Origin: Paraliobacillus zengyii
GTDB lineage: Bacteria; Bacillota; Bacilli; Bacillales; Amphibacillaceae
Length of the DNA: 64,000 bases
Assembly (NCBI RefSeq): GCF_003268595.1
Contig: NZ_CP029797.1
Coordinates: forward strand, 3,245,501 to 3,309,500
Reading direction: 5' to 3'
The position numbers and the translations under genes are program-made. The notes beneath the pieces were generated by a model that was not told the DNA's origin, did not search any database, and worked only from the letters and a program-made list of their open reading frames with translations. Within the stretch, counting starts at the first letter, position 1, and every line of letters starts with the position of its first letter. Positions 8,445 through 37,765 of this stretch are shown piece after piece.

Positions 8445-9515
8445 TTATTCACCTATTTGTTCCATTTTATTTGTTTGCTCTTCCATAATCAATGCATCGA
8501 CTACTTCCATTAGTTTACCTTCTAAAACTTGATCAAGTTTTTGAATAGTTAAACCTATGCGGTGATCTGTCACACGGTTTTGCGGAAAATTATATGTGCG
8601 AATTCGTTCTGAACGATCTCCTGAACCAACAGCAGACTTACGTGTTTGGTCATATTCTGCTTGTGCTTCTTGACGGACTTTATCATAAATACGAGCGCGC
8701 AAAATTTTCATCGCTTTTTCTTTGTTCTTTATTTGCGACTTTTCATCTTGAATCGAAACAACTGTACCTGTAGGCATATGCGTTAGTCTTACTGCTGACA
8801 TTGTTGTATTAACACTCTGTCCGCCTGGTCCACTAGACGTAAATGTATCGACACGAATATCCTTTTCATGTACATCTACTTCTACTTCTTCCGCTTCTGG
8901 CATGGCTACAACAGTTGCAGTTGATGTATGAATTCGTCCACCTGACTCTGTATCTGGTACACGTTGTACACGATGGGCACCATTTTCATATTTTAACTTG
9001 GAATAGGCACCTTTACCATTAATCATAAAGATAATCTCTTTATAGCCACCAACTCCTGATGAGCTTGATTCCATCACATCCATCTTCCAACCTTGTGACT
9101 CAGCAAATCGAGCATACATCCGGTATAAATCAGCTGCAAATAATGCTGCTTCATCCCCACCAGCTGCACCACGAATTTCCATAATAACACTCTTATCATC
9201 ATTTGGATCTTTAGGAAGTAATAACAGTTTTAACTTTTCCTCTAATTCTGGTAATTGATCTTCTAATTCTGAAATTTCCATTTTGACCATGTCCTGCATA
9301 TCTGCATCTAATTTTTCCTCAAGCATTACCTTTGCATCCTGCAGTTCTGTCGACACGTCTTTATATTGGCGATAAACTTCAATAATATCTGTTAAGTCAG
9401 ATTGTTCTTTTGAGTAATCTCTTAGTTTCTTCGTATCATTAATTATCTCAGGATCACTTAATAGTTCATTTAATTTCTCATAACGATCTTCTAATGATTG
9501 TAATTTATCAAGCAT
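8445..9515 (-). CDS. prfA: Peptide chain release factor 1
   Basis: Recognises UAA and UAG stop codons and triggers hydrolysis of peptidyl-tRNA. With the start at [12 protein letters not shown] the protein is 356 residues, the usual RF1 length; GAGGTGA lies 5 bases upstream of this ATG, whereas a further upstream codon in frame has no ribosome site. The codon-reading tripeptide region RVPDTES (about 185-191) and the peptidyl-transferase motif SGPGGQSVN (GGQ at 231-233) are intact. First gene of the prfA-prmC pair. Upstream lies repeat array 1, so its promoter must sit between about 9516 and 9655 or read through from tdk. Confidence 0.97.
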
Positions 9516-9656
9516 GCAATTCACCTCTTTTTTCTTTTCCAAAGCACGTTCTTATTTATTATACAATACTTTTCATTATAGTATAGGTGATATCCCGAGT
9601 CAAAGTTTCAAAATAGCTCTAGACAGGTTTTAATTTTATATAGCGCACTTTTGAAT

Positions 9657-9975
9657 GGTTCGTCGGATTACTGCGGTGGTCCGACGGATTAACGCTTCGC
9701 TTCGTCGGATTATCGCGTGCTCCGCCGAATTAACGCTTCGCTCCGTCGGATTATTGCGTGCTCCGCCGAATTAATGCTTCGCTCCGCCGAATTATCGCGT
9801 GCTCCGCCGAATTAATGCTTCCTTCCGTCGGATTATCGCGTGCTCCGCCGAATTAACGCTTCGCTCCGTCGGATTATTGCGTGCTCCGCCGAATTAATGC
9901 TTCCTTCCGTCGAATTATCGCGTGCTCCGCCGGATTACCGCTGCCTTCCATCGAATTATCGCCACGCTTCGCCTT
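9657..9975 (+). repeat. Tandem array 1 of alternating 20/21-bp units
   Basis: About 15 head-to-tail units fill the gap between tdk and prfA. Each unit has a core TCCGNCGRATTA followed by a short variable part such as TCGCGTG or ACGCTTCG; units ending in CGCGTG/TGCGTG alternate with units ending in CGCTTCG/TGCTTCC, giving a higher-order period of about 41 bp. Many cores are near-palindromes (TCCGTCGGA). The array is GC-rich against an AT-rich background. The last units (CCATCGAATTA, then CGCCTTAATC) are decayed. It contains no gene. Confidence 0.93.
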
Positions 9976-10016: not shown

Positions 10017-10048
10017 CTAAAAAGCACCGTACATGGACGGTGCTTTAG
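10017..10048 (-). terminator. Terminator of tdk
   Basis: AAAGCACCGT (10021-10030) pairs with ACGGTGCTTT (10037-10046) directly after the tdk stop; on the minus strand it is followed by TTTTAGTC. It lies between tdk and repeat array 1. Confidence 0.85.
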
Positions 10049-10050
10049 CA

Positions 10051-10674
10051 TTATTCAGATGTTTTTTCTGAAGTTTTTATATTTAGTAATTGTTTTGGCT
10101 TATTTGGAACTTCGTGGTGATGGCGGCAGCGTGGTTCATACGATTCTGAAGCACCAACTAAAATAATTGGATCATCATAAGAGGCAGGTAAATCATCGAT
10201 TAAACGTTGCGTTCTACTTGCAGGTGAGCCACAAATAGGGCAAATAGCATTTAATTTAGAGACGGATTCACTTAATGCCATTATCGCCGGAACAGGACCA
10301 AACGGCTCCCCACGAAAATCAGTGTCTAAACCAGCAACAATTACACGGTGACCATGATTGGCTAATTCATCTATTATTTCAACAATCTTATCATCAAAAA
10401 ATTGAACCTCATCGATACCTACAACATCAATTGAGTCATCCATTTCAGCGATAATATCGTCAGCACATGAAACTGGGCGAGCTAAAATAGTATTTCCATT
10501 GTGAGAGACTACGGATTCTTTTGCATACCGATCATCAATTGCTGGTTTAAAAACTCGAACAGATAAATTACCATATGTCGCTCTTCTGACACGTCGAATA
10601 AGTTCCTCTGATTTCCCCGAAAACATACTACCACAGATGAGTTCTACCCATCCACTTTGCTTCATAACATACAC
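10051..10674 (-). CDS. tdk: Thymidine kinase
   Basis: Type II (tetrameric) thymidine kinase of the pyrimidine salvage pathway. Walker [11 protein letters not shown] (15-24), the aspartate motif GIDEVQFFD, the DFRGEPFG stretch, and the zinc site formed by CPICGSP and CRHHHEVP are present. The 207-residue length is normal. The start is GTG: AAAGGAGAGG lies 6 bases before it, and the N-terminus MYVMKQSGW matches B. subtilis Tdk residue for residue; the internal ATG three codons on is too far from the ribosome site. It lies between rpmE2 and prfA as in related genomes. Confidence 0.96.
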
Positions 10675-11170: not shown

Positions 11171-11338
11171 ATTGTTCCACTCCTTCTGCCCTGAATCCCT
11201 TAGAAACAGAGTTATTATTTAGCTATATTACACAATTTTAAAAACTGTTTAATATACATATTCTTTTAGAACTCACACTGAAAGATTATAACAGTCTGAT
11301 TTGACGTTTGCAATAGCTAGTTTTATTTTTTACTAGGA

Positions 11339-22754: not shown

Positions 22755-23540
22755 CTAGCGATACATCATCCAATATCCTATATCCTGAAATCCAAGACGC
22801 TTATAGATTTTTCCGGCATCTGGATTATTATAAAATAAACATAGTTGTTTCCCTTCAGCCAATAAATCCTGACAGAGCCTTGTTAAACAAGCTGTCGCAA
22901 GTCCTTGTTGTTTATAGCTTGGATCCGTTGCAACAGCTACTATCATTGCTGAACTACTATTTTCCGCAGCTGTAGAAGCAGAAGAAACCATTTTATTGCT
23001 TCGCTCAATATAATAGCCGCGCGTTACACCTTTGTCGAGATTTCGACGCTTGGCTTCAGGATCATATACTAGTTCATCAAACTCCGGCACCCGAATCAAA
23101 AATCCACCTAATTCGTCGATTTCGTTATATGTTATCTCCTTAACCTCTGATGTATCCATTTTTGATAAAGATGCATCATTGGTGCATTTCGCATAATATA
23201 GCTCCCGTTTAATTTTATATGTAATTTGTAAATGTGGCTCGATTTGGGCCGTTATTTCTTTCAATCCAGAAAGCAGCGGAGCATTTTGATCTGCATTAAT
23301 AATATCCGCAAATCCTTTTGCATCAAAGGCTCCTTGTGCATATGGAATGTAATTTTTTTCATATTTTAATAAAACAGCTCGCAACTGATTATATTCGTCA
23401 AAGTCTCCCCATACTTTCTGAAAATCTTGCGCATAACCGAAGGCTTCAATATCTCCAATAATAAATAAATTTTCTGCTGGTTTTTGTTGAATTAATGCTT
23501 GTGTAACAGCATCATCTTGTTCAGTCAATTGTCGAATCAT
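22755..23540 (-). CDS. GNAT family N-acetyltransferase
   Basis: A 261-residue protein with a poorly conserved N-terminal half (about 1-130) and a C-terminal GNAT domain. The acetyl-CoA loop is VATDPSYKQQGLATACLTRL (about 205-224, matching the R/QxxGxA pattern), and the closing strand-helix is LFYNNPDAGKIYKRLGFQDIG. Two-domain architecture is like other FR47-type acetyltransferases of Bacillaceae; the substrate is unknown. ATG start, with GAGGTGGGAACGCG upstream. Convergent with the ClsB-like gene (stops 23 bp apart), with repeat array 2 just upstream of its start. Confidence 0.82.
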   Translation of the reverse strand: MIRQLTEQDDAVTQALIQQKPAENLFIIGDIEAFGYAQDFQKVWGDFDEYNQLRAVLLKYEKNYIPYAQGAFDAKGFADIINADQNAPLLSGLKEITAQIEPHLQITYKIKRELYYAKCTNDASLSKMDTSEVKEITYNEIDELGGFLIRVPEFDELVYDPEAKRRNLDKGVTRGYYIERSNKMVSSASTAAENSSSAMIVAVATDPSYKQQGLATACLTRLCQDLLAEGKQLCLFYNNPDAGKIYKRLGFQDIGYWMMYR

Positions 23541-23646
23541 CGCGTTCCCACCTCGTTTTGTTAATCAGTACTAATATATTACCACAACTTTCTTGAAAAT
23601 TTTCCTTTATGTTGATAGAAATGAGCTACTATTCTGTTTCAGCTGA

Positions 23647-23878
23647 AATTAGCGCGTGCTCCGTCGGATTATGACTGCCTTCCGCCGAATTAATGCGTGC
23701 TCCGACGGATTATGACTGCCTTCCGCTGAATTAGCGCGCGCTCCGTCGGATTATTACGGGCTTCCGCTGAATTATTGCGCGCTCCGTCGGATTATGCCTG
23801 CCTTCCGCTGAATTAATGCGTGCTCCGTCGGATTATGCCTGCCTTCCGCTGAATTAGCGCGCGCTCCGACGGATTATA
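23647..23878 (+). repeat. Tandem array 2 of alternating 20/21-bp units
   Basis: About 11 units in the gap between argS and the GNAT gene. Here the alternation is strict: unit A, 20 bp, CTCCGWCGGATTAT plus a 6-base tail such as GACTGC or GCCTGC; unit B, 21 bp, CTTCCGCYGAATTA plus ATGCGTG or GCGCGCG. A and B together make a 41-bp period repeated five times with very few differences. Orientation is the same as arrays 1 and 3. The array ends 21 bp before the argS terminator and encodes no protein. Confidence 0.94.
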
Positions 23879-23898: not shown

Positions 23899-23947
23899 AA
23901 AAAAAGAAGATCCAGTCCATCTTCAAATGGACTGGATCTTCTTTTAT
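23899..23947 (-). terminator. Terminator of argS
   Basis: A perfect 19-bp stem (AAAAGAAGATCCAGTCCAT at 23902-23920 with its complement at 23927-23945) lies just past the argS stop, with T residues on the minus-strand side. Confidence 0.9.
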
Positions 23948-23952
23948 GAAAA

Positions 23953-25623
23953 TTACATGCTTTCTGGGGCTTTTACGCCAATTAACTGTAAACCATTTGC
24001 AATCGTGTATTTTACAGATTTCATTAAAGCCAATCTTGCTTTTGTACGCTCTGGATTCTCAGCATCTAAAACTTTTTCAGCATTATAGAAGCTATGCAAG
24101 GCTGACGCAACATCAAAGATATATTGTGTTAGACGATGTGGTGTTCTATTTTCAGCTGCATCGATAATTACTTGTGGAAATTCACCAATGCGCTTCAATA
24201 AATCTTCTTCTTTTTCAGAAACTAACAAGCTAGCATCAATGTTTTCATCTGTAAGGAAACCCTTTTCTTCTGCTTGACGAAGCATTGCACAGATTCTTGC
24301 ATGCGCGTATTGGACATAAAAAACCGGGTTATCATTTGATTCAGATTTAGCTAAATCCATATCAAAGTCTAAATGTGAATCGCTTGAGCGCATAACGAAG
24401 AAATAACGCATTGCATCGACGCCTACTTCTTCCATCAATTCACGCAATGTTACAGCCTTTCCTGTTCGCTTACTCATTTTGACTTTCTCACCATTTTCAA
24501 ATAGGTTAACCATTTGGATAATCTCTACTTCAAGCGTTTCTGATTCATAACCTAATGCCTGGATAGCAGCGCGCATTCTTGGAATATAACCATGATGATC
24601 AGCACCCCAAATATTAATTAATGTTTTAAAACCACGCTCTAATTTATTATTATGGTAAGCGATATCTGGTGTTAAATACGTGTACGTTCCATCATTTTTA
24701 ATAAGTACACGGTCTTTATCGTCACCAAAATCAGTAGTACGGAACCAAGTTGCACCGTCCTCTTCAAAAGTGTGTCCCTTATCCTTTAGTAAAGCTAAAG
24801 TAGGAGCTATTTTACCATCATCATAAAGAGATGTTTCTGAGAACCATTGGTCAAAGTTCACTCGGAATTCTGATAAATCTTTTTCCAGTTTTTTAATCTC
24901 ATATTTCAAGCCATATTCTTTGAAAAATTCTAATCGTTCTTCTTCCGGTTTATTAGCCCACTCATCTTTATAAGCATCAACTAATTCCTCGCCAAGCGCA
25001 ATAATATCTTTACCATGGTAACCATCTTCAGGCATCGCCGTGTCTTTTCCTAGCGCTTGCATATATCTTGCTTGAACAGATTTAGCAAGGTTATTTATTT
25101 GGTTACCAGCATCATTAATATAATATTCACGTTCGACATCATAACCAGCCGCATCAAGAATATTACAAAGTGAATCACCTACTGAAGCGCCACGCGCATG
25201 CCCAAGGTGTAAGTCCCCTGTTGGGTTTGCTGACACAAATTCAACTTGGACTTTATGGCCTAACGCCGCTTCTGATCGTCCGTAATTGTCGCCCTCTTTT
25301 AATATAACTGGGATTAGACGCGTTAAATACGTATTATCCATGAAAATATTAATGAATCCTGGTCCAGCAATTTCTACTTTCATAATCGAAGCTTCCATTG
25401 TATCTAATGCAGCTACAATTTCATCTGCAATCTGTTTCGGTGCTTTCTTAGCAATTCGTGCTAGCTGCATGGCGATGTTTGTTGCGTAGTCTCCATGTCC
25501 TTTGTCTTTTGGTTGTTCCAGTACAATAGCAGGCAATTCTGCTTCTGTTGCTAATTCTGCTTTAAGTACAGCTTGTTTAATCTCTGTTTTTAATCTTTCT
25601 TGCATTTCTTGCATAATATTCAT
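23953..25623 (-). CDS. argS: Arginyl-tRNA synthetase
   Basis: Class I synthetase charging tRNA-Arg. The 556-residue protein has the N-terminal additional domain (about 1-90), the HIGH-type motif [19 protein letters not shown] (about 128-146), the KMSK-type motif [17 protein letters not shown] near residue 370, and a C-terminal anticodon-binding helical domain. The start codon overlaps the ywiB stop (TAATG), with GGAGG upstream, so the two are translationally coupled as in B. subtilis. No T-box leader is visible. Confidence 0.97.
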
Positions 25624-35325: not shown

Positions 35326-35467
35326 ATTCTATTCCTTTCCTCTACCTTTTTGTCTGCACAATTTATTATTTCATTATATAATAGTTTTGGTTATTCTAAA
35401 AGAGGTACTAGCTTTAAACAAATCAAAACTATTGAAAATAATAGCTACATACGAAGGAGCACAACAC

Positions 35468-36310
35468 ATGATAGATTGGAAAACTTTTTTTACTGGAAAA
35501 ACATATCGACTAATTGACCACAGTGATCCTAGCGTAACGGAAAAGGCAATGGATTCATTTGCTTATGATGATGCAATCGCTCTGTCTGTTAGTAAACATA
35601 CAGCACCACACACGATTCGATTATGGGTACACGACAAAACGGTCGTCTTGGGAATTTCAGATGCTCGCTTACCTTATATGGAGGAAGCTGTGCGCTGGTT
35701 GCAAAGTCAAGGTTACCAAACGGTTGTCCGAAACTCTGGGGGATTAGCCGTCGTACTTGATTCAGGTGTACTTAATATATCACTCTTACTTTCTGGCGGA
35801 AATACAGTAGGCATTCATCAAGGATACGATATCATGGTCGCATTCATTCAAGATTTATTAACAGATTACACAGATGAAATTAAAGCATTTGAGGTTGTTG
35901 GATCCTATTGTCCGGGGGAATATGATTTAAGTATCAATGGCAAAAAATTTGCTGGCATTTCTCAACGACGAGTTCGTGACGGAATAGCTGTTCAAATTTA
36001 TCTTTCAGTAGAAGGTGACGGACAAGAACGAGCAGAATTAATTCGACATTTTTACAATCTTGGCTTAAGAGGGGAAACATCGAAATTCACTTATCCAACC
36101 GTAAAACCTGATACCATGCGTTCCTTATCCGAACTAATTGGCGAGCAGATTACAGTCGATCAAGTAAAAGATAAACTTACACATCTATTGGATAATTTGA
36201 CTTCAGAAAGTGATCAAACTGATTTAACGGACGAAGAAAGTATCGAATATAAAAAAAGAAAACAACATATGATTGATAGAAATCAAAAAGCACTCGGTGA
36301 TTTAGCTTAA
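35468..36310 (+). CDS. lipL: Octanoyl-[GcvH]:protein N-octanoyltransferase
   Basis: Transfers octanoyl groups from GcvH to the E2 subunits of 2-oxoacid dehydrogenases in the Gram-positive lipoate pathway. The start at MIDWKTFFTG is set by GAAGGAG 8 bases upstream, although the frame is open 81 bases earlier; the resulting 280-residue length equals B. subtilis LipL (YwfL). The catalytic Cys148 lies in VGSYCPGEYDLS and the conserved Lys in INGKKFAGISQRR. The 3' end overlaps its own terminator. A following tandem array separates it from the menC-like gene. Confidence 0.93.
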   Translation: MIDWKTFFTGKTYRLIDHSDPSVTEKAMDSFAYDDAIALSVSKHTAPHTIRLWVHDKTVVLGISDARLPYMEEAVRWLQSQGYQTVVRNSGGLAVVLDSGVLNISLLLSGGNTVGIHQGYDIMVAFIQDLLTDYTDEIKAFEVVGSYCPGEYDLSINGKKFAGISQRRVRDGIAVQIYLSVEGDGQERAELIRHFYNLGLRGETSKFTYPTVKPDTMRSLSELIGEQITVDQVKDKLTHLLDNLTSESDQTDLTDEESIEYKKRKQHMIDRNQKALGDLA

Positions 36311-36339: not shown

Positions 36340-36653
36340 TCTTCCGACGGATTATGGCGTCTTTCCGCCGAATTATTGCGTGACTCCGACGGATTAGTGC
36401 GGACTTCCGCTGAATTAAGGCGTGCTCCGACGGATTATGGCGGACTTCCGCTGAATTATTGCGCACTCCGCCGAATTAGTGCGGACTCCGACGGATTATG
36501 GCGCCCTTCCGCTGAATTAATGCATGCTTCCGCCGAATTACTGCGTGACTCCGACGGATTAGTGCGGACTCCCGCTGAATTAGTGCGGCTTCCGCCGAAT
36601 TAATGCATGCTCCGACGGATTAGTGCGGACTTCCGCTTGATTAGTCCGTGCTA
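36340..36653 (+). repeat. Tandem array 3 of alternating 20/21-bp units
   Basis: About 15 units between the convergent lipL and menC-like genes. Units with TCCGACGGATTA and tails TATGGCG or GTGCGGA alternate with TTCCGCTGAATTA or TTCCGCCGAATTA and tails TTGCGTG or ATGCATG; the alternation is looser than in array 2. Same orientation as the other arrays. The last unit reaches into the 3' end of the menC-like gene, whose final codons and stop derive from it. A frame stays open through most of the array by chance; no ribosome site precedes it. Confidence 0.93.
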
Positions 36654-37765
36654 TTTTTATTGATAACTATTTTTTCTACTGTAAAGTGCTTTAGCGCGTC
36701 TCTGTCAACTTCGTATCCAATTCCTGATTTATTTGGTATCTGAACTTGGCCATTTTTCACATGCACAGCTGGTGCAATAATATCGCGATGCCAATAGTTC
36801 TCTGATGCTGCTGTGTCTCCTGGCAATGTGAATTGTCCTAAACTCGCCACCGCAAGACTATGCGCTCTTCCAACACCTGCTTCAAGCATGCCACCACACC
36901 AAAGACTCACATTATGTTCTGTTGCATACTTTTCTATTTCTTTAACAGCCTGAATTCCACCTACACGACTCATTTTCACATTAATAATTTGACAGCTACC
37001 AAGTGCTACTGCAGTTTTCACATCACTATATGTATGAATACTTTCATCCAAGCAAATTGGTGTCTGTAATTGTTTTTGTAAAGATGCATGTTCAACAAAA
37101 TCATCATTCGCTAATGGTTGCTCAATCATTTGTAAATTAAATTGATCTAACTGTTTTAAAATTTTTAAATCGGATAATTTATAGGCAGAATTCGCATCTA
37201 CCATTAAATCAATCGCAGGAAACACTCGTCTCACTTCTCGAACAAGTTCCACATCATTACCAGGCTTAACTTTTAACTTAACTCGCTTGTATCCAAAAGC
37301 AAGCTTGTCATCAATCACTTTTAAAAGTTGATTCGTAGATGTCTGAAGGCCAATACTAACACCAACATCGATTACTTGTTTAGTTCCACCAATTAGCTGA
37401 TATAAAGGTCGATTCATCTTTTTCGCAAACAAATCCCAAACAGCGCTCTCTACAGCCGCTTTTGCCATGTTATTACGACGAACCTTTTGAAAACGTTCCG
37501 CAACCTCCTCTGGATGAGAAATTGGCGATGCTACTACCAAAGGAACTAAAAATCTTTCTATCACATGTCGATTTGTTTCCGTTGTTTCTTCTGTATACCA
37601 GGGAGTTGTAAATGCTTCTGTTTCACCAAAACCACTAATTCCATCTTCATCAATAACTTCTATGATATAAAAGTCCTTATGCTCCACACGCCCAAAACTT
37701 GTCACAAACGGGTATTTATATTCCATTATCAGGTGATGAAGTACGACACGATTTATTGTAAGCAA
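36641..37765 (-). CDS. menC: Enolase-superfamily OSBS/N-acylamino-acid racemase (MenC type)
   Basis: A 374-residue enolase-superfamily enzyme; the MenC reaction makes o-succinylbenzoate for menaquinone, and close relatives racemise N-acylamino acids. The catalytic pattern is complete: KRVKLKVKPG (Lys-x-Lys), the metal ligands in MVDANSAY, MIEQPL and CLDES, and the opposite lysine in INVKMSRVGG. No other men gene is in the window, so racemase activity is an alternative. The start is TTG with GGAGGG 6 bases upstream. The last residues (KNSTD) are encoded by sequence shared with repeat array 3. Confidence 0.82.
   Translation of the reverse strand: MLTINRVVLHHLIMEYKYPFVTSFGRVEHKDFYIIEVIDEDGISGFGETEAFTTPWYTEETTETNRHVIERFLVPLVVASPISHPEEVAERFQKVRRNNMAKAAVESAVWDLFAKKMNRPLYQLIGGTKQVIDVGVSIGLQTSTNQLLKVIDDKLAFGYKRVKLKVKPGNDVELVREVRRVFPAIDLMVDANSAYKLSDLKILKQLDQFNLQMIEQPLANDDFVEHASLQKQLQTPICLDESIHTYSDVKTAVALGSCQIINVKMSRVGGIQAVKEIEKYATEHNVSLWCGGMLEAGVGRAHSLAVASLGQFTLPGDTAASENYWHRDIIAPAVHVKNGQVQIPNKSGIGYEVDRDALKHFTVEKIVINKNSTD

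Follow-up and report, generated by a model that had tools for sequence, protein, structure and literature searches.

Direct repeats spaced at two helical turns are found in plasmid centromere and iteron arrays, on which proteins assemble cooperatively along the same face of the DNA. One example is parC of pSK41, whose 20-bp repeats are bound by ParR. Plasmid centromere arrays are single plasmid loci located beside their par operon. The REP/BIME sequences of enterobacteria are present in many extragenic copies, preferentially at the 3' ends of genes and in convergent gaps; the REPs form hairpins, often lie as inverted pairs, and are tied to RAYT transposases. Neisserial dRS3/NIME repeats form intergenic arrays with units of ~20 bp, in which the 20-bp palindrome dRS3 is mixed with longer RS units. 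CRISPR loci combine repeats of 20 or more bp with ~30-bp unique spacers.

STAR elements of Staphylococcus (PMC3532100) are intergenic, G+C-rich direct repeats with a short conserved core, T(G/A/T)TGTTG(G/T)GGCCC(C/A), and locus-specific spacers. Their units are ~50 nt in length, their cores are separated by 40 bp or more, their unit number is variable, and their function is given as unknown.

The arrays described here, from Paraliobacillus zengyii, a salt-loving relative of Bacillus, appear nearest in form to STAR elements and plasmid centromere arrays. A conserved core and locus-specific spacers are common to these arrays and STAR elements, whereas the P. zengyii cores are separated by 8-9 bp rather than by at least 40 bp, and the STAR core differs from TCCGNYGRATTA and from the cores of relatives at 20-21 bp. 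A search for STAR pairs (TGTTGKGGCCC-N25-55-TGTTGKGGCCC) gave no match in the P. zengyii genome and matched one genome among 398 of the class, with units of 60-61 bp. Two-turn direct repeats are shared with plasmid centromere arrays, but protein binding is a prediction here, the P. zengyii arrays occupy many chromosomal loci, and the flanking genes examined revealed no partition gene (families: the best 25 of 125). Like REP/BIME sequences, the arrays are extragenic, multicopy, and biased to 3' and convergent positions, but they are direct repeats. Their ~20-bp intergenic units resemble those of dRS3, whereas sequence and layout differ by description. Units made of a 12-bp core and an 8-9-bp spacer also fall outside the definition of CRISPR.

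Across 5.39 million open-access papers, P. zengyii-type motif strings were matched only in an Arabidopsis paper and an aptamer paper, and the strings of relatives were not matched. Topic searches found no description in the open-access text that they reached. Two-turn arrays of this kind are apparently undescribed in the open-access literature, as far as it was covered, and the statement in a preliminary description that no named repeat family has this form still stands, since no known class was matched by Rfam, the STAR pattern, or this literature. At the Rfam gathering score, no array was matched, and the sole match in the window was an L31-Firmicutes ribosomal protein leader elsewhere (11180-11211, − strand). 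Our preferred reading, to which we assign a probability of about two in three, is that each array is a row of putative sites for one DNA-binding protein, placed two turns apart on the same DNA face.

Arrays of the P. zengyii chromosome

Three arrays reside in the window, which is the whole 64-kb stretch of DNA that was analyzed, and all have the core TCCGNYGRATTA at a pitch of 20/21 bp. Array 1 (9659-9966, + strand) carries 15 phased cores, the last of which is TCCATCGAATTA. It is located between prfA (RF-1-type; 8445-9542, − strand) and tdk (thymidine kinase; 10051-10674, − strand), flanked on one side by the prfA upstream region and on the other by the tdk terminator-like hairpin (GCACCGTACATGGACGGTGC, 10020-10046, with flanking A/T runs). 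A similar hairpin lies alongside the array at the prfA-tdk site of P. quinghaiensis. Array 2 (23638-23878, + strand), with 11 clear cores and one decayed first unit, is placed between a GNAT-type gene (22755-23540, − strand) and argS (arginyl-tRNA synthetase; 23953-25623, − strand) and also adjoins a terminator-like hairpin (GAAGATCCAGTCCATCTTCAAATGGACTGGATCTTC, 23906-23941); both window hairpins were read from sequence. Array 3 (36343-36651, + strand) has 15 cores in the gap between two convergent genes, one lipoyl ligase-like (35387-36310, + strand) and the other of the enolase superfamily (36641-37765, − strand), the 3' end of which is entered by the array.

The window has 36 exact copies of TCCGNYGRATTA, whereas 100 dinucleotide shuffles gave 0.08 on average. 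TRF reports a period of 41 in all three arrays and a period of 21 also in array 3, and higher-order repeats of 41 and 123 bp are present. The G+C content is 0.55 within the arrays, and their 200-bp flanks have values of 0.285-0.40. These data bear out the preliminary description as to the reality of the three tandem arrays, their placement between genes (with array 3 running into its neighbor's 3' end), and their contrast in base composition with the surroundings. The common orientation noted for the three window arrays is correct for them but does not extend to the genome, where 4/9 arrays lie on the − strand.

The P. zengyii genome is a single 3.73-Mb contig with the DnaA gene at 278-1651. 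A pattern search revealed nine TCCGNYGRATTA-type arrays at 1381, 1391, 1402, 2854, 3255, 3269, 3281, 3340, and 3600 kb, together with a two-unit remnant at 1945 kb. Three more arrays, at 591, 2416, and 3176 kb, have a second core, TTCGCCYGATTA, with 16/16 core distances equal to 20; they were found with profile model R2 (see below), which gave a further match at 2896 kb that contains no chain of three cores. The nine arrays have 5 to 22 units each. When cores were accepted at up to two mismatches and distance was unbounded, 95/96 core-to-core distances were 20 or 21 (28 of 20, 67 of 21, and one of 24). The strict alternation of 20- and 21-bp units proposed earlier is therefore a tendency rather than a rule: every distance is 21 in the 1402-kb array, as are 19/21 in the 3600-kb array.

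Core identity in P. zengyii is 0.88 both within and between arrays, whereas spacer identity is 0.56 within arrays and 0.38 between them. The partly homogenized spacers show that unit duplication, too, shapes the P. zengyii arrays. An earlier remark that the arrays lack unique spacers thus applies within P. zengyii arrays, but neither between arrays nor in relatives, where spacers are unique.

Orientation relative to replication, raised as a check in the preliminary description, gives no general rule. In P. zengyii, 11/12 arrays point against the fork (p=0.006), although the arrays are clustered and so are not independent; GC skew in the stretches examined has a positive sign up to 1.95 Mb and a negative one from 2.4 Mb on. 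In five relatives, of ten searched, 27/67 arrays point against the fork, with the origin taken at position 1, the terminus opposite, and two genome lengths rounded. On this count, the polarity seen in P. zengyii is not general. Nearness to the origin reached p<0.05 in no genome tested.

The 2854-kb and 3340-kb arrays each start no more than 10 bp from a stop codon and are followed by a terminator-like hairpin. This layout could be expected if the arrays acted in the transcript, as 3' UTR structures or as RNA-binding sites. However, 17 arrays folded on both strands showed no consistent folding excess over 25 dinucleotide shuffles: 32/34 z-scores are above −3, with exceptions of −3.1 and −4.1. 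Whole arrays rather than single units were folded, with longer arrays represented by their first 330 bases, and on this measure a stable hairpin of the REP type was not seen. Next to tandem genes, 5 arrays have the same orientation as the genes and 8 the opposite one, and single-stranded RNA needs no fixed pitch of 20-21. A function in RNA is therefore extremely improbable.

Arrays in relatives and their genomic positions

Arrays of this kind were sought with two profile models. Model R1 was built from the P. zengyii arrays, and model R2 was built from relatives, without P. zengyii rows. R1 matched 9/159 genomes of the family and 19/299 genomes of the order, P. zengyii included. The order is named Bacillales in GTDB usage and Caryophanales in NCBI naming. 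R2 matched 52/299 order genomes and 25/117 genera sampled, again with P. zengyii included; six of the 52 (G355, G547, G525, G369, G392, and G254) match by construction because they supplied model rows. A draw from the class gave 6/279 matches (P. zengyii, two genomes of the same order, and three weak ones outside it), and a draw from the phylum gave 3/249 (P. zengyii and two weak matches that on visual inspection seem to be coding). The element kind thus scores in many Bacillales genomes and hardly beyond the order, and is present in more than one strain. The exact two-core pattern, found among 159 family genomes only in P. zengyii and as one pair in genome G096, had suggested a repeat of one species, an idea overturned by the profile models.

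The core differs among groups. It is TTCGCYGRATWA in P. quinghaiensis (G109), TTCGCCGRATTA in genome G108, TTCGCGGAATTA in families f4 and f58, and CTCGCCGGATTA in family f81. Two core types, TTCGCCGGATTA and TTCGCYTAATTA, occur within Alkalibacillus, with TTCGCCGGATTA being the core in A. filiformis (G547) and in G355 of the same genus. The f4 genome G254 is nearest to Mesobacillus selenatarsenatis by tblastx. Across 80 tdk loci, R1 gave three matches in two loci, so many 20/21-bp arrays of other genera have units that this model misses. In genome G097, a 12-copy 40-bp array of other sequence (TATCGCTCGAA...ACCACCAAAG; L104, 8606-9100) is situated near a CGCTGAATTA array.

In P. zengyii, P. 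quinghaiensis, and G108, 9/24 arrays occupy convergent gaps, compared with 14/116 background gaps (p=0.005). The distance from an array to a gene 3' end falls to 3-14 bp, with one 12-bp overlap, and the distance to a gene 5' end is never less than 75 bp. In Alkalibacillus, 8/24 chains lie in convergent gaps, and two short 5' distances (8 and 54 bp) occur. The arrays mostly occupy promoter-free intergenic space.

The 68 flanking proteins include recurrent families, namely MFS_1 (4), Xan_ur_permease (3), and NERD (3, at one orthologous site), with CorA, HSP20, TetR_N, Acetyltransf_1, and DUF2207_C seen twice each, among the matches listed. No candidate binder was named from these proteins among the matches listed (the best 25 of 125 families). 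The NERD-gene site has arrays in P. zengyii, P. quinghaiensis, and G108, co-oriented on the 3' side of the gene in all three. In the latter two genomes (L079 and L087), outward-pointing arrays are present on either side of the NERD-domain gene. The NERD proteins gave matches to defense-kinase models only far below cut-off.

Some sites are shared and others vary. At the prfA-tdk site, P. zengyii and P. quinghaiensis have arrays in identical orientation; at the same site in P. ryukyuensis and P. salinarum, no array was seen, which implies that any single array is dispensable. One site common to P. quinghaiensis and G108 has the array inverted relative to the genes. Because arrays come and go between species, they might be mobile or REP-like repeats whose core is a recognition site for a transposase or recombinase. 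Several arrays of genus g46 (L091-L103; G157 and G158) fit this idea: at different loci they are flanked by conserved sequences whose ends are inverted (AACTGCGAAGTA / TACTTCGCAGTT), an arrangement that resembles a small non-autonomous element carrying an array. No conserved ends were seen on the P. zengyii arrays, however. The Y1 (RAYT) transposase is also absent from this genome (0 matches to PF01797, Y1_Tnp), whereas 5/14 control genomes were matched. Moreover, the copies have no spacer similarity and so are not recent copies. Array 1 has no match in plasmid (72,556) or phage records, and two core patterns have none in viral contigs. On balance, we regard a mobile origin as improbable.

Divergence of core, spacer, and pitch

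Conservation in the relatives' elements is confined to a ~12-bp core and its two-turn pitch. The 8-9-bp spacers of one array are at chance likeness in Alkalibacillus and three other families, yet the spacing is still 20-21. P. quinghaiensis has 10 arrays with core identities of 0.78 within and 0.77 between arrays, and spacer identities of 0.38 and 0.39, respectively; 39/39 distances are 20-21 at up to two mismatches, and 6/48 differ when three are permitted. Two Alkalibacillus species have 17 and 7 chains, one of these 24 being a reverse-strand reading over another chain (L301). Their distances are 20-21 in 106/110 cases (the rest are 16, 27, 32, and 35), mostly in the order 21-20-20-20(-20), and their spacer identities of 0.33-0.39 compare with 0.35 and 0.40 expected from base composition.

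The Mesobacillus-like f4 elements have distances of 21-21-21-21 in 5/5 distinct elements, one of which has an extra poor core match 38 bp upstream. Family f58 has five units in 4/5 elements and 19/19 distances of 20-21. For f81, 29/29 chain distances are 20-21 where chains admit 19-22, and one distance of 28 appears when this limit is lifted. After rows repeating a locus were dropped (3/8 for f4, 1/12 for G525), spacer identities are 0.26 within and 0.29 between arrays for f4 (0.31 expected), and 0.46 and 0.47 for f81 (0.47 expected).

Orthologous elements provide a measure of rate. In six pairs, mismatches amount to 32/405 in cores, 68/232 in spacers, and 142/674 in flanks (Fisher p=3e-12 for core vs spacer and 4e-9 for core vs flank), with units found by fuzzy motif match, which biases towards conserved cores. 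One of the pairs, L298/L310, is identical throughout the element and thus is uninformative. A seventh pair (L305/L309; six vs three units, flanks differing at 74/120) was left out, with its alignment unsure; the six-unit chain of L305 is split into two of three, so that only three units were scored. Its addition gives 35/441, 79/248, and 216/794 for core, spacer, and flank and leaves the conclusion unchanged. Element length is kept among the six pairs save in three cases: one whole 21-bp unit in L299/L312, one 1-bp spacer gap in L297/L314, and a decayed last unit with three gap columns in L296/L313. In the Alkalibacillus orthologs L297/L314, core position 7 is G in 6/6 units of one element and in 0/6 of the other (T or C). 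These comparisons show purifying selection on the core and the 20-21-bp pitch, with spacers that drift as flanking DNA does and a copy number that can change in whole units.

A neutral satellite produced by slippage and recombination, with the 41-bp repeat as its by-product, is one of two origins offered in the preliminary description. The 41- and 123-bp higher-order repeats, the homogenized spacers and variable unit number of P. zengyii arrays, and the whole-unit difference between orthologs are what such a process would leave. Yet the relatives retain cores and pitch over spacers at random identity, ortholog cores change more slowly than spacers and flanks, and unrelated units share the same pitch. 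The conservation of core and pitch over chance-like spacers, with the ortholog rates, excludes a purely slippage-driven satellite, although slippage is still a real process that lengthens P. zengyii arrays. As a whole account, the satellite is very improbable, whereas the other origin, a phased protein-binding array, is supported by the same data, with the suggested nucleoid, segregation, or DnaA-like roles as conjecture.

The pitch extends beyond the core families. Among non-coding tandem arrays at 80 named Bacillaceae loci, 24/53 have a period of 20-21 or 40-42, as do 6/7 arrays from eight loci in other families of the order and 2/11 non-coding arrays of the class outside the order. Gene calls here followed a crude ORF rule, so that some of the survey arrays scored as non-coding, such as the acidic tail of rpoE, are likely coding. 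A random own-family sample of 39 regions, some of them short, had weaker phasing than the tdk-centered set, with 1/8 non-coding arrays phased and 3/8 at 52 bp. In a TRF-independent lag scan, 54/87 repeat-bearing gaps had lags of 20-21 (12), 39-42 (21), 51-53 (15), or 60-63 (6), whereas no gap fell at 22-26 or 43-50 and the shuffles gave none. These lag classes are near whole numbers of helical turns. Intergenic arrays with a 52-bp period, or five helical turns, were noted at L116, L146, L147, L167, L172, L236, and L241; by eye, their unit sequences are unrelated between species.

Phased repeats are present in 7/71 tdk 3' gaps and in 19/1005 other gaps, the latter figure obtained by subtraction. 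Arrays in the tdk-prfA gap occur in different genera (L109, L142, L152, L155, L161, L179, and L188). Units in the tdk gaps are mostly unrelated by eye, and their likeness to the P. zengyii arrays is in pitch alone. Two-turn phasing across genera, whatever the unit sequence, and the bias to convergent gaps and 3' positions are compatible with purely structural DNA, in which gene ends would carry a phased bend or an absorber of twist that needs no specific protein. A specific 12-bp core is nevertheless kept within each genome, and bending alone would not require one. We find this structural account distinctly improbable.

A putative nucleoprotein tract

If each array is a row of sites for one protein, then sites two helical turns apart would all lie on one side of the helix. 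The pitch, together with site numbers that are small and almost constant in several families, suggests that assembly is probably cooperative, with the protein joining head to tail on one face and forming a straight nucleoprotein tract. The protein itself would be the selective agent. Since the arrays sit at gene ends and mostly away from promoters, the tract may provide structure or insulation at those ends instead of acting as the operator of a promoter. The first unit of several Alkalibacillus elements adjoins an inverted half (CCGGCG-TT-CGCCGG), giving the dyad CCGGCGTTCGCCGG. This dyad might act as a seed from which assembly would run one way. The arrays of Paraliobacillus would be the same element, lengthened through local unit duplication.

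Taken jointly, and at somewhat less than even odds, these features could reflect an undescribed chromosome-wide system in Bacillales, in which a dedicated protein family polymerizes on phased 12-bp sites, starting from a dyad seed in some genera, with as many as tens of loci per genome, most of them promoter-free. Such a system would use at least two site codes per genome, exemplified by A (TCCGNYGRATTA) and B (TTCGCCYGATTA) in P. zengyii and by TTCGCCGGATTA and TTCGCYTAATTA in Alkalibacillus. The code would drift from family to family and could switch array-wide, as position 7 of the L297/L314 ortholog may exemplify.

Intergenic tandem repeats in bacteria are often held to be neutral or used as typing markers. 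The comparison of core, spacer, and flank instead shows selection on site and helical pitch, and the arrays may therefore report an activity that binds DNA sequence-specifically and is common across a well-studied order. Some genera have a short, discrete element of five units (~100 bp), so that one labeled DNA could capture the protein. STAR-like elements would also gain a testable model for their function.
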